Below are positions 27,845 through 32,049 of a stretch of 33,460 bases of DNA, one piece after another; within the stretch, counting starts at the first letter, position 1, and the number at the start of each line of letters is the position of its first letter. A model generated the notes under the pieces. That model was not told where the DNA came from, did no database searches, and worked only from the letters and a program-made list of their open reading frames with translations. Origin of the DNA: Nitrospirota bacterium (GTDB taxonomy: Bacteria; Nitrospirota; Thermodesulfovibrionia; Thermodesulfovibrionales; UBA1546); the NCBI GenBank assembly GCA_009773185.1, contig WPIF01000028.1:1-33460 (forward strand). Direction: 5' to 3'. The translations under genes were made by a program, and so were the position numbers.

Positions 27845-28189
27845 TTACTTGACATAAATCAGGCTCCTTTTAATATCTTCCGCTATATGTCTGTATCTCG
27901 GGCTATGAAAACTTTGTTTGAAATGCTCGAAAGTTGCCATGTCAACTTTTCTCCCAAGTTTTGCTTCAAGCCTGTCGGCTAGCGCGATAAACTCAAAACC
28001 CAAAGTCTTTCGGAGGTCCACAAGAACATCCACATCGCTTTTTTTATTCTGTTTACCCTTCGCAAAGGAGCCATACAGCATTATCCGTTCAACACCGTAT
28101 TTGTCCTTAAGATAAGGCATTTCTTTCCTGAGGATTGAAATAACCTTTTCCTGCGACATCACATGGGGCTTCTTTGTTTCTCTCTTCAT
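27845..28189 (-). CDS. MNT-type nucleotidyltransferase-domain protein
   Basis: Minimal nucleotidyltransferase of 114 residues with the catalytic signature MLYGSFAKGKQNKKSDVDVLVD (GS...DxD). It is the size and type of MntA-like antitoxins, which modify or pair with HEPN toxins. GAGGG lies six bases before ATG 28189. No intact HEPN partner is adjacent; instead 48-bp direct repeats encoding truncated starts flank the gene on both sides. This may be a solitary survivor of a broken pair. Confidence 0.85.
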   Translation of the reverse strand: MKRETKKPHVMSQEKVISILRKEMPYLKDKYGVERIMLYGSFAKGKQNKKSDVDVLVDLRKTLGFEFIALADRLEAKLGRKVDMATFEHFKQSFHSPRYRHIAEDIKRSLIYVK

Positions 28190-28351: not shown

Positions 28352-29800
28352 TCAGAACTTAGCAGTTCCAAACTCCTTTATCTTCCCAAGTATCTCATTC
28401 GACAAATTAGAATCTCCAATTAGTAAAGCTATTTGCAGGGCAGCAAGTAAGCACATGCTGCCAGAGAAGGTCAAAACTTTAATTGCCTCCTCATCGGCAT
28501 AGTTAGGTCCCAAGGAATCTGCGGATAAGCGACGGCTCACCTGAAAGTAACCAGTGTGTGCAAAACTGTTCATGGGACCCCAGTATTCTTCCTTGATGCT
28601 ACTGAGAACTCCTTCTTTGAAGCTTTCCAATTGCTCAACCTCTTGAAGAACATTATTAAACCCCTTGCGAAGATTGTCATTCCTGTATTGAATTAATTCA
28701 TCTTCAGTGGCACAGTTATGCAACCATATGCCTCGCACACATGCCTCGAAAATGACCCTAATCAATGCGCATGCAGTCCCAAAGTGGCCGTTTTCGCAGA
28801 GCACAACAATTCCGTTATGATGCTCAATTGCCACATCGAAACAACCAGCGGGTAGAGCAATGCGGGGGCTTGCCGAAATATTTTTTCCGCCTATGCGTTC
28901 AAGCACCCAGTTACCGAGTGCTTTATGATATTCCAGAGCAGGCGTAATTCTGTTGCGAGTTAGATATCTGAGTTGTTTTTCATATTTGCTAATATCAAAC
29001 GCTTGATGCGTAAGGTTCACTTCAGTACTGGTGACTTTTCTGTTATGGTAACTAACGAAATATAGCAATTTCCCCAGTTCCCTCGCATTGTTGAAGTTGC
29101 TTTCCAAGTTGAATGTAATGCCCTCTTTGATCTCTGCCAATTTTTTCTCTTTATTGTCACCCCAATTGCGCAGAGCGGAATAGATATCAAGGCAGTAATA
29201 TCCATCTTCATCTTTGTAGAAAAAACTCTCGATGTTGGGGTAAGAAATTTCTTCGAGATATTTACGCAAGGGTTCATCAAGTACAATTCGCGGGTATTCC
29301 GCCTTTTTATTTTCCAATGTAACAGCCATGTTATGTGCCTCGCTGAAAACAAATAGTTGCTTCTCCCTTTCACTCTCGTAGTGGTTGCCTATCGAAATAC
29401 CGCCTCTTAGTAGGTAGCCCATCTTGGAAATGAAAAGAGTAGCGAAGAAGGTCATCACTGAGAAATAGGTTTCAATACGGTTTCCTACCGTAGTTTGCTC
29501 ATCCCATGTTTTACACCTAAAATTGATATTGGAAAGGGGCAGGGTGAATATGAAGCTGTCAGCAATGCATCTCACCCCAATTGAATCAGCAATTTTTTTC
29601 AAATAATCCTGAGTTTCCACATCGGATTTATCGTCTACGCTTTCCAAGAATATTTCGCGCAATTTCCGTACCGCATTCACCGACATCTCATAAAACAGGT
29701 CTTCCATTCTTTTAACGAGTTCCGGTTTCTTGGCTACCCGTTCAACAAGGTCTTTGTATCCCAGAATATCAATGTATGCGACTATTGCTTTTTCGAACAT
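28352..29800 (-). CDS. Class III nucleotide-cyclase-like domain fused to a C-terminal helical domain (DUF6988-like)
   Basis: A 482-residue soluble protein. Residues 1-200 carry the landmarks of a class III cyclase fold in order: AYIDILGY (Asp11, first metal site), CIADSFIF (Asp81, second metal site), LLRGGISIG (residues 131-138), and SEAHNMAVTLE, where Asn157 matches the catalytic Asn of cyclases. The Arg expected four residues later is Thr161. Residues about 320-465 form a helical domain (EHHNGIVVLCENGHFGTACALIRVIFEACVRGIWL ... MNSFAHTGYFQVSRR), which resembles, from memory, the uncharacterised DUF6988 family. The gene stands alone among nucleotidyltransferase and toxin-antitoxin genes, with a weak ribosome-binding site. 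Enzyme activity is unproven; a signalling or defence role is inference. Confidence 0.7.
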   Translation of the reverse strand: MFEKAIVAYIDILGYKDLVERVAKKPELVKRMEDLFYEMSVNAVRKLREIFLESVDDKSDVETQDYLKKIADSIGVRCIADSFIFTLPLSNINFRCKTWDEQTTVGNRIETYFSVMTFFATLFISKMGYLLRGGISIGNHYESEREKQLFVFSEAHNMAVTLENKKAEYPRIVLDEPLRKYLEEISYPNIESFFYKDEDGYYCLDIYSALRNWGDNKEKKLAEIKEGITFNLESNFNNARELGKLLYFVSYHNRKVTSTEVNLTHQAFDISKYEKQLRYLTRNRITPALEYHKALGNWVLERIGGKNISASPRIALPAGCFDVAIEHHNGIVVLCENGHFGTACALIRVIFEACVRGIWLHNCATEDELIQYRNDNLRKGFNNVLQEVEQLESFKEGVLSSIKEEYWGPMNSFAHTGYFQVSRRLSADSLGPNYADEEAIKVLTFSGSMCLLAALQIALLIGDSNLSNEILGKIKEFGTAKF

Positions 29801-29846: not shown

Positions 29847-29879
29847 CTAAAAACAAGGTTGTCGCAATTTGCGACCACC
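29847..29879 (-). terminator. Probable rho-independent terminator with a strong palindrome
   Basis: On the minus strand GGTGGTCGC and GCGACAACC pair with one mismatch around an AAATT loop, followed by TTGTTTTTAG. It lies directly after the operon 30712-29890. The core GTCGCAATTTGCGAC (29861-29875) is also a perfect 7+1+7 palindrome about 60 bases before the cyclase-like gene, so it could be an operator instead or as well. Confidence 0.55.
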
Positions 29880-29889
29880 GCTGCATTCT

Positions 29890-30108
29890 TCACAGCCTAA
29901 ACCTCTCCCTCTTCCCTGCCAGAAACTTTGCCTTAATCAGCTTTAACTGCTTATCAATCTCAGAGAGAACCTTATTAACCTCTTCCTCTGAATATTCATA
30001 AGAACTCTTGTTAGAGCAGTTGCCGAGGATTCTGATTTTTTCTAGGATGTCGTTGGTACGTTTTGCGGCTATTCTTTTAAAGCGCTCATTTCTTGTCTCG
30101 TCAGTCAT
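29890..30108 (-). CDS. Small conserved hypothetical protein, 72 aa
   Basis: It reads TRNERFKRIAAKRTNDILEKIRILGNCSNKSSYEYSEEEVNKVLSEIDKQL. The pattern with RLLGNCSN-like and YEYSEEEV is one I recognise from many small bacterial proteins of unknown function, often in accessory regions. It is helical and charged, with no membrane segment. The ATG follows the stop of the nucleotidyltransferase gene without any gap, so it belongs to the same transcript. Confidence 0.75.
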   Translation of the reverse strand: MTDETRNERFKRIAAKRTNDILEKIRILGNCSNKSSYEYSEEEVNKVLSEIDKQLKLIKAKFLAGKRERFRL

Positions 30109-30567
30109 TTACTTCTTTCTTTCCTTTTTTTTCATCTTCTTGATTTCCTGCAGCATTTTTAAATCCTCAAGGTCTTTAGCCCTACCGGCTGCCTTTTTCA
30201 TCTTTATCAGATCATTAAGGCTAGCGAAATAAACAAATGTTTTTCCAAATTTCTCCCTTACTTTATTCCTCCATGCCTCATCAAAGCTGATTCCCTTCAC
30301 ATGAGGATGGATATCAGTTTCAACAGCATACTGCCGGATTAATAATTTTTTTGTTAGCAGATCCTCTATCGTGATATCTGTCATGTCATAACCGAATTTT
30401 TTTAATGCCTTCCATACCCTTTCCGCATTCTCCTGTGCCGGTTTGACAAAAATATCAATATCAAGGGTTGTGCGTGCATAGCCGTGCACAGGGAATGCAG
30501 TAGCGCCGATTACCACAAAATCAACCTTATTTTCTTTTAATAATCTCAAAAGGCTCTCTGTGTCCAC
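30109..30567 (-). CDS. Nucleotidyltransferase-superfamily protein (AbiEii/DUF6036-like)
   Basis: A 152-residue protein with the fold signature VIGATAFPVHGYARTTLDIDIFVK (G-containing loop, then DxD). DDL-like LNDLIKMKKAAGRAKDLEDLKML closes the domain, as in AbiEii and related proteins annotated as nucleotidyltransferases. In AbiE systems such a protein is the toxin. Its start lies 41 bases inside the upstream 61-residue gene in another frame, a tight arrangement typical of toxin-antitoxin pairs. The lysine-rich tail is unremarkable. Confidence 0.83.
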   Translation of the reverse strand: MDTESLLRLLKENKVDFVVIGATAFPVHGYARTTLDIDIFVKPAQENAERVWKALKKFGYDMTDITIEDLLTKKLLIRQYAVETDIHPHVKGISFDEAWRNKVREKFGKTFVYFASLNDLIKMKKAAGRAKDLEDLKMLQEIKKMKKKERKK

Positions 30568-30916: not shown

Positions 30917-31339
30917 ATGAAAAAAATCTATACCCTCGGAACAAGCAGGCGGAGCGAGGAGGATTTTGTTGAAATTCTCCTTAATTATGACATCAGAACC
31001 CTGATTGATGTCAGAAGTTATCCAAAAAGCAAAATCCAGATATTTACGCGGGAGAACCTTGAGAATCTCTTAAGGAAAGAAAATATCGCCTATATCTTCC
31101 TCGGCAAAGAACTCGGCGGTTTCAGAAAGGGCGGCTACGAGGCATACACTTCAACCGAAGATTTTAAAATAGGGATTGACGAGCTTGAAAATGTTGCATC
31201 AGAAAATAACAGTGTAATCATCTGCGCTGAGAGATTCCCATGGAAATGTCATCGGAGGTGGATTGCAAGAGAGCTTCATAAAAGAGGGTGGCTTGTTGAG
31301 CACATAATAGATAAAGGCAAAGTCTGGGTGCCGAAGTGA
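30917..31339 (+). CDS. DUF488-family protein
   Basis: A 140-residue member of the DUF488 family: MKKIYTLGTSRRSEEDFVEIL, LIDVRSYPKSK, YIFLGKELGGFRKGGYEAY and VIICAERFPWKCHRRWIARELHKRGW. The CAE...CHR pair is the most conserved family site and suggests nucleic-acid or nucleotide chemistry, but no function is proven. The gene stands alone, divergent from the nucleotidyltransferase operon and convergent with the PIN toxin gene (4 bases apart). Confidence 0.9.
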   Translation: MKKIYTLGTSRRSEEDFVEILLNYDIRTLIDVRSYPKSKIQIFTRENLENLLRKENIAYIFLGKELGGFRKGGYEAYTSTEDFKIGIDELENVASENNSVIICAERFPWKCHRRWIARELHKRGWLVEHIIDKGKVWVPK

Positions 31340-31343
31340 AAAA

Positions 31344-31730
31344 TCAGCAACGGATTTGTGAGCCAAACAGAACTAACCCTTTAATTTTTCTGTAATGCTT
31401 CCAGTTCCTTGTAATCAACGGTAATTTTCTATCAAGCGCTGTTGCTGCTATTAAAGCGTCTTCCTTTGACATTTCCGGGTATTTATAAAGCACATCTGAA
31501 AATCTTTCGGCTATGTTTTGCGTGATAGGGATTATTCTGTATTTCTTCAGCACATAAAGGATTGCCTGTTTTTCTGAATCTTTTAGCCCCTGCTTTGCAA
31601 GCAGTTCTTTCTTAGTTACCGCAGAATAATATATATCAAAATCTTTGCCTTCAAGAATAGCTTCAAAATAGCCGCTATTAAAAAAATCTATGAATATGTC
31701 GGTATCTACTAAGAGCCTGATTTTTGCCAT
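31344..31730 (-). CDS. PIN-domain toxin (VapC-like)
   Basis: Probable metal-dependent RNase of a type II toxin-antitoxin pair, 128 residues. It has the acidic start LLVDTDIFIDFF (Asp9), a mid-protein Glu in SAVTKKELLAK, and EDALIAATALDRKLPLITRNWKHY with the later Asp residues. The start lies 22 bases inside the antitoxin gene. VapC-type toxins cut tRNA or rRNA; the target here is unknown. Confidence 0.88.
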   Translation of the reverse strand: MAKIRLLVDTDIFIDFFNSGYFEAILEGKDFDIYYSAVTKKELLAKQGLKDSEKQAILYVLKKYRIIPITQNIAERFSDVLYKYPEMSKEDALIAATALDRKLPLITRNWKHYRKIKGLVLFGSQIRC

Positions 31731-31975
31731 TTCTTAATCTCATCGAGAAATGCCTTTACAGAGACCTCTTTTGATTTTTTCCTTATTGCTTTGACATGAG
31801 CCACACTGTCTTTTACATCGGTGTAGCCGTAGGGATTCAGCTTCTCCCTGACCATTTCTTCGAGGAAATTGACAGGATAAACACCTTTTTTGCCTGCTTC
31901 ATTAATTACAGCTCTTTTTAATGAAGAATCAAAAGAAAGCGTCCATTTCTCTTTTTTGAGCGCCGCCTTTGCCAT
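31709..31975 (-). CDS. Antitoxin partner of the PIN toxin
   Basis: An 88-residue protein with a basic N-terminal part (SLKRAVINEAGKKGVYPVNFLEEMVREKLNPYG) that could be a ribbon-helix-helix DNA-binding segment, and a C-terminal helix (SVKAFLDEIKKWQKSG) likely to wrap the toxin. ATG 31975 has GGAGGT five bases upstream; the adjacent GTG 31978 is too close to it. Overlap and order identify it as the antitoxin. Confidence 0.8.
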   Translation of the reverse strand: MAKAALKKEKWTLSFDSSLKRAVINEAGKKGVYPVNFLEEMVREKLNPYGYTDVKDSVAHVKAIRKKSKEVSVKAFLDEIKKWQKSGS

Positions 31976-32049
31976 CACTCACCTCCATACGTGTATTATA
32001 CGTATAGTTTATGGGCAATGCAATAGGGTGATGGATATCGAAAGATATT

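Follow-up and report, generated by a model that had tools for sequence, protein, structure and literature searches.

In the Pycsar system as described, a cyclase with two metal aspartates (PycC) is accompanied by a separate cyclic-pyrimidine receptor that has a TM or TIR domain. DS-11 is a one-protein CBS-HEPN defense system in which the HEPN catalytic residues are required, and PD-T4-2 has been described with DUF262 and HEPN_RiboL-PSP domains. The signatures of HEPN domains are an Rx4-6H catalytic motif and, in many families, an Ex3[KR] acidic motif; families with partial motifs include AF0298 (2hsb) and AbiV (PMC3710099). DUF6988 is one of five DUFs newly implicated experimentally in phage defense, in E. 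coli, as reported in 2026; the text of that report names neither the host system of DUF6988 nor its role there (PMC13092281).

Here we describe a gene that joins a predicted cyclase fold to DUF6988. The window, the whole 33,460-nucleotide stretch of Nitrospirota DNA that was analyzed, encodes a 482-aa fusion protein in one uninterrupted ORF on the minus strand (28352-29800; ATG at 29800, stop at 28354-28352). Its start is the same as that of a 64% identical relative (L036/L056), and the gene is present as a single complete copy in its own 2.79-Mb genome. The original prediction had placed a cyclase-like domain and a helical domain in one chain at this position, and this was confirmed: the ORF is intact, and a modeled cyclase fold at residues ∼1-285 is followed by a complete DUF6988 domain at ∼290-477. 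The gene and its parts are as follows.

28352-29800, minus strand: gene for the fusion protein (482 aa), an open ORF whose start is shared with L036/L056
28946-29800, minus strand: predicted N-terminal class III cyclase-fold domain, residues 1-285, from the AlphaFold2 model, Foldseek and VIA matches, and the end point of stand-alone relatives
29768-29770, minus strand: codon of D11, first putative metal aspartate (49/49 family members with a residue there), aligned to a metal Asp of true cyclases
29558-29560, minus strand: codon of D81, second putative metal aspartate (49/50 members), aligned to the Asp in the GD motif of true cyclases
29318-29332, minus strand: codons 157-161 (N-M-A-V-T), at the transition-state Asn/Arg positions of class III cyclases (N157 in 6/50 members, Arg161 in 3/50)
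28370-28837, minus strand: DUF6988 domain, Pfam match to residues 322-477 (E 2.6e-27; PADLOC PDC-S52; model pLDDT 82)

An AlphaFold2 model of the N-terminal domain, built from an alignment of 24 sequences, reached a pLDDT of 90.9 and a pTM of 0.89. When this model was used in Foldseek, all 42 matches at E <= 0.001 were class III adenylate or guanylate cyclases. Class III cyclases also made up all 50 rows listed after VIA realignment, with Z from 14.5 to 12.3 and an rmsd of 3.2 over 170 residues for the top row. At the level of single sequences, no Pfam model covered residues 1-285, PF00211 did not match the fusion protein at E <= 1 (the genome search gave three other proteins), and a direct PDB sequence search with the protein returned chance matches only. 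A profile of 50 members of the N-terminal domain family aligned collinearly with three genuine PF00211 cyclases encoded in the same genome (P = 0.0013), so that D11, D81, the RGG...G stretch, N157/T161, and L162-E163 were all matched to true cyclases. In this register the two metal aspartates correspond to D11 and D81, and the transition-state Asn/Arg to N157/T161, T161 occupying the catalytic Arg position in the window protein. The family profile also gave 10 weak matches among PDB sequences, six of which were adenylate cyclases in register. Taken with Foldseek, these profile results make the cyclase assignment more than chance; as modeled, the N-terminal domain adopts the fold of class III nucleotide cyclases. 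The original prediction had recognized the class III order in Asp11, Asp81, R132-G-G-I-S-I-G138, and Asn157, with Thr instead of Arg four residues past the Asn. These residues are indeed present, their register is borne out by the profile-profile alignment, and the structure prediction that it had proposed as a check gave a cyclase fold rather than an unrelated one.

The N-terminal domain belongs to a family of divergent stand-alone proteins whose length is mostly 220-310 aa (∼280 aa). Of 396 genomes of the phylum, 19 carry the family, which also occurs in Pseudomonadota, Bacteroidota, Bacillota, Chloroflexota, Myxococcota, Verrucomicrobiota, and others, as well as on plasmids and viral contigs; the closest relatives of the window protein come from Nitrospirota MAGs. 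No confident match was obtained with Pfam for two members and the window protein, or with PADLOC and NCBIfam for nine members each. In a maximum-likelihood tree, the window protein fell in a fully supported clade of six, where it paired with the 64% identical stand-alone protein L018, the product of the L036/L056 gene (support 100/99).

In an alignment of 50 family members, D11 (49/49) and D81 (49/50) were kept almost throughout; also conserved were R132 (49/50), G133 (49/50), E163 (47/50), P170 (44/50), R171 (41/50), and a K/R at position 244 (47/50). Asn was found at position 157 in only six members and Arg at position 161 in three. Asn157 can thus not be read as a conserved catalytic residue and gives no evidence of ordinary cyclase chemistry; we dropped it as evidence of catalysis after this alignment. 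A two-metal site that is strongly constrained, next to a transition-state pair that is not, points to a domain that handles nucleotides by an altered chemistry; the conservation pattern is also compatible with a domain that only binds, and an enzyme that has lost Asn/Arg may be dead.

Two further members of the family are recorded here in their own right. The genome of the window carries a second, stand-alone member (G000:C15:29722-30507; L034, L037:8708-9508), which groups with L087, a member from a viral contig (support 100/94); a nearby gene resembles DUF4062 by eye. In an Elusimicrobia MAG (L061:1411-3272), the cyclase-like gene is broken by ∼1 kb of unrelated-looking sequence, by either an insertion or an assembly fault.

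The C-terminal helical domain had been said to resemble DUF6988; it is DUF6988 (PF22491), matched at residues 322-477 with 96.2 bits against a curated cut-off of 27 (Pfam E 2.6e-27; 5.2e-28 in the genome search). The related DUF5677 matched residues 317-399 (Pfam 1.9e-7), and PADLOC PDC-S52 matched residues 292-477 (3.2e-24). The experimental validation of DUF6988 in anti-phage defense strengthens the idea that this half is an effector. Its model (pLDDT 82) gave nothing significant in Foldseek; in VIA, its best match was the HEPN protein 2hsb (rmsd 3.1, 124 aligned residues) at a Z of 9.8, which is under the caution line for helical bundles. Several more HEPN chains followed, the toxin chains 7ae2 and 8xdj among them, and rhodopsins scored nearly as high, so the HEPN fold call is suggestive only; the lean of these model-based matches is toward HEPN. 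HEPN_AbiV matched the domain under its cut-off (E 0.044). DUF6988 lacks the Rx4-6H motif, since H415 is conserved in 11 of 13 sequences with no Arg 5-7 residues upstream. The Ex3[KR] motif is present (E352 in 12/13, R/K356 in 11/13), and R348 is invariant (13/13). In scans of viral contigs, the broader DUF6988 alignment found none and the narrower alignment found two.

Across 101 near relatives, 396 + 296 genomes of the phylum, 230 genomes of the class, and scans of plasmids, viral contigs, and genome contigs, the joined halves occurred only in the window gene, and whole-protein relatives were absent from phages and viral contigs. The 64% identical L036/L056 protein ends a few residues past a common YE(K/R)QL motif, where the window protein runs on into DUF6988; in a same-family genome, a remnant with 71% identity has a stop at this point. 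Because both end at the junction, the fusion is end to end and probably recent. Both halves are complete and retain the residues conserved in their families, with a similar GC3 (0.46 and 0.44). Among the relatives searched, we found no unfused operon of the two families, and the fusion is therefore the only direct evidence of their coupling; as it was seen once, in this genome, the coupling could be incidental.

Three candidates for a second pairing were rejected. A Sphingopyxis plasmid match that seemed to span both halves proved to be a DUF5677/DUF6988 gene alone, and its upstream neighbor is not cyclase-like. At L060:7001-8550, a cyclase-like gene from the clade of the window protein (41% identical) lies 2 bp ahead of the gene for a helical 236-aa protein that looked like an unfused partner; profile comparison detected no DUF6988 similarity in this protein (P 0.74 and 0.56), it has no Pfam match, and its Caulobacter relative lies near AbiEii, with no cyclase-like neighbor in the annotated region. 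A DUF6988-like gene three genes downstream of the relative in L070 was too weak to count (E about 0.01).

In the window, the fusion gene lies in a patch with a G+C of 0.40, against 0.44 for the window as a whole, together with the following features.

27845-28189, minus strand: MntA-like minimal nucleotidyltransferase gene, 162 bp downstream of the fusion gene (NTP_transf_2 E 1.3e-12; MntA_antitoxin 1.4e-11, under cut-off)
29861-29875: perfect inverted repeat GTCGCAA-N-TTGCGAC separating the fusion gene from its upstream neighbor; on the minus strand it resembles a terminator
29890-30108: 72-aa ORF accompanying the DUF6036/DUF2204 nucleotidyltransferase gene
30109-30567, minus strand: DUF6036/DUF2204 nucleotidyltransferase gene (Pfam)
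31344-31978, minus strand: genes of a VapC-like PIN protein (31344-31730; PIN E 1.1e-11) and a possible antitoxin (31709-31978)

The nucleotidyltransferase and PIN genes of a toxin-antitoxin-like patch were thus found as originally described. The terminator-like repeat has no second exact copy in the genome and one copy with a mismatch. It suggests, weakly, that the fusion gene is not cotranscribed with the upstream gene, as an equal number of terminator-like sites is expected by chance; the DUF6036/DUF2204 nucleotidyltransferase and its 72-aa ORF are probably a separate unit. The same patch also holds a DUF488 protein gene (window 30917-31339, plus strand) that matches the PADLOC candidate PDC-M45B (E 6.5e-30).

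The neighbors of homologues had been proposed as a further check, and relatives of both halves were found beside defense genes, as individual examples and not as a measured enrichment. Genes of the N-terminal domain family lie immediately upstream of a Gabija pair (L010; GajA 2.6e-203, GajB 8e-181), immediately downstream of Dsr1 (L109), 13 bp behind AbiEii (L113), and behind a PDC-S59 ATPase gene (L006), and the closest relative (L036) adjoins PD-Lambda-4_A. Other relatives adjoin copper-transport or plasmid-replication genes. DUF6988 comes third at L107:2191-4609, after DUF262 (GmrSD_N) and HEPN_RiboL-PSP genes (PD-T4-2_A 3.2e-39), and a similar operon with DUF262 and a RiboL-PSP-type HEPN holds DUF6988 at L099:445-2763; both operons are like PD-T4-2 with an extra gene.

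Other settings of cyclase-like genes were also seen. On a viral contig (L085:5154-6753), the cyclase-like gene overlaps its upstream gene by 11 bp; in the 280-aa product of the latter, membrane segments and a coiled coil are apparent by eye, and the pair is a possible two-gene unit of cyclase and membrane effector. Cyclase-like genes directly behind a ParA-type ATPase gene recur across phyla, in Hyphomicrobiales (L072:5800-7711) and in Taishania, Bacteroidota (L074:5937-7657); their proteins cluster together (98/98), though on long branches. On Acinetobacter plasmids (L011, L012, and L120) and a Hymenobacter plasmid (L110), and thus in two phyla, cyclase-like genes lie by genes for a heavy-metal P-type ATPase and DUF305; some of the Acinetobacter plasmid copies are truncated or have insertion sequences at their flanks.

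The reading that we favor, tentatively and at a little short of an even chance, is a one-gene defense module in which the divergent cyclase-fold domain controls a DUF6988 effector. The N-terminal domain would bind a nucleotide via its two-aspartate metal site (D11 and D81) and would probably act on it without the usual Asn/Arg pair; the family-conserved basic residues R132, R171, and K244 are candidates for phosphate or transition-state contacts. The state of this domain would control DUF6988 at the C terminus, which as a helical and probably HEPN-like effector would harm the cell or the phage once infection is sensed. Such a module would operate in the manner of DS-11, and as though Pycsar had been condensed into a single chain. 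The poor conservation of positions 157 and 161 would also suit an N-terminal domain that binds a nucleotide without turnover and serves the DUF6988 effector as its allosteric sensor, in the manner of CBS in DS-11, a precedent for joining a nucleotide-binding domain to HEPN, and a single chain of this kind needs no diffusible messenger. We consider this unlikely: metal aspartates kept in 49/49 and 49/50 members would be unusual in a purely binding domain, and most members of the family stand alone, without a fused effector. It is quite improbable that the chain works in a Pycsar-like way, with the N-terminal domain making a cyclic mononucleotide that activates the C-terminal domain of the same or other molecules. 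The class III fold, two metal aspartates as in PycC, and defense-type neighbors would fit; however, the Asn/Arg pair is lost, PADLOC gave no PycC match, a cyclic-nucleotide-binding domain is absent, and the receptor of described Pycsar is a separate TM or TIR protein.

An incidental fusion, in which the loss of a stop codon joined two neighboring mobile genes whose halves have no common function, is given a slim chance. The completeness of both halves, with their conserved residues and closely similar GC3, speaks against it, but the fusion was seen once, the 71% identical remnant from the same family stops at the junction, and the relatives are separate genes that were not found adjacent. The MntA-like gene that lies 162 bp downstream in the same orientation, with the HEPN toxin chains 7ae2 and 8xdj among the structural matches, would be in keeping with a toxin-antitoxin arrangement as in HEPN/MNT, in which a HEPN-like C-terminal toxin is neutralized through nucleotidylation by the N-terminal domain or the MntA-like protein. 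This is very improbable given that the Rx4HxY motif is absent, the MntA match is under its family cut-off, and no MNT gene was noticed by the other DUF6988 genes that we read.

Returning to the one-gene defense module, the fusion links a cyclase-fold family without a confident Pfam, PADLOC, or NCBIfam match to a domain family lately validated in phage defense. It offers a single small gene in which to ask two questions: do cyclase folds without the Asn/Arg pair still yield a nucleotide product, and does DUF6988 respond to that product? If both answers are yes, CBASS, Pycsar, Thoeris, and type III CRISPR would be joined by a further branch of nucleotide signaling, and there would be a first way into the mechanism of DUF6988. 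A wider proposal, which we regard as doubtful, is that the N-terminal domain defines a widespread, undescribed family of enzymes that combine the cyclase fold and a two-aspartate site with other catalytic residues (perhaps R171/K244). Such enzymes would make or use an unfamiliar nucleotide signal in defense, and here one would be fused directly to its DUF6988 effector.

Compared with class III cyclases (PF00211; for example, Rv1625c and soluble guanylate cyclase), the N-terminal domain shares the predicted fold, the two metal aspartates, the RxG...G stretch, and the A..A..LE helix in register, but it has no PF00211 match, its family does not keep the transition-state Asn/Arg pair, and it carries additional helices at the C-terminal end, in which K/R244 and Y251 are conserved. 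The fusion has the complete domain and conserved residues of other DUF6988 proteins (PF22491; PADLOC PDC-S52), whereas those examined stand alone (∼200-240 aa) or lie in DUF262 and HEPN operons. In type VII HEPN/MNT toxin-antitoxin systems, a HepT-type Rx4HxY toxin lies by MntA; here the neighbor is MntA-like with a match under cut-off, and the C-terminal domain has no Rx4HxY. The Pycsar-like logic of the original prediction stood in part. The cyclase fold, the fusion to DUF6988, the toxin-antitoxin-like patch, and homologues beside defense genes agree with a one-gene signaling or anti-phage module, and a cyclase-fold protein with a presumed effector, whose relatives lie in defense neighborhoods, is common to Pycsar (PycC with PycTM or PycTIR) and the fusion. 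The close parallel fell away: the fusion is one chain with DUF6988 in place of TM or TIR and no cyclic-nucleotide receptor, Asn/Arg is lost across the family, PADLOC PycC models gave no match at E <= 1 (PDC-S52 being the sole match), and in Pfam neither the fusion nor any of the neighboring genes tested matched a cNMP-binding or TIR domain. On these sequence comparisons, membership in Pycsar is not supported. The fusion differs from DS-11 in having a cyclase fold and not CBS, and a DUF6988 domain without Rx4-6H; yet both proteins join, in one chain, a nucleotide-binding-type domain to a HEPN-type domain, which in the case of DUF6988 is probably HEPN-like.
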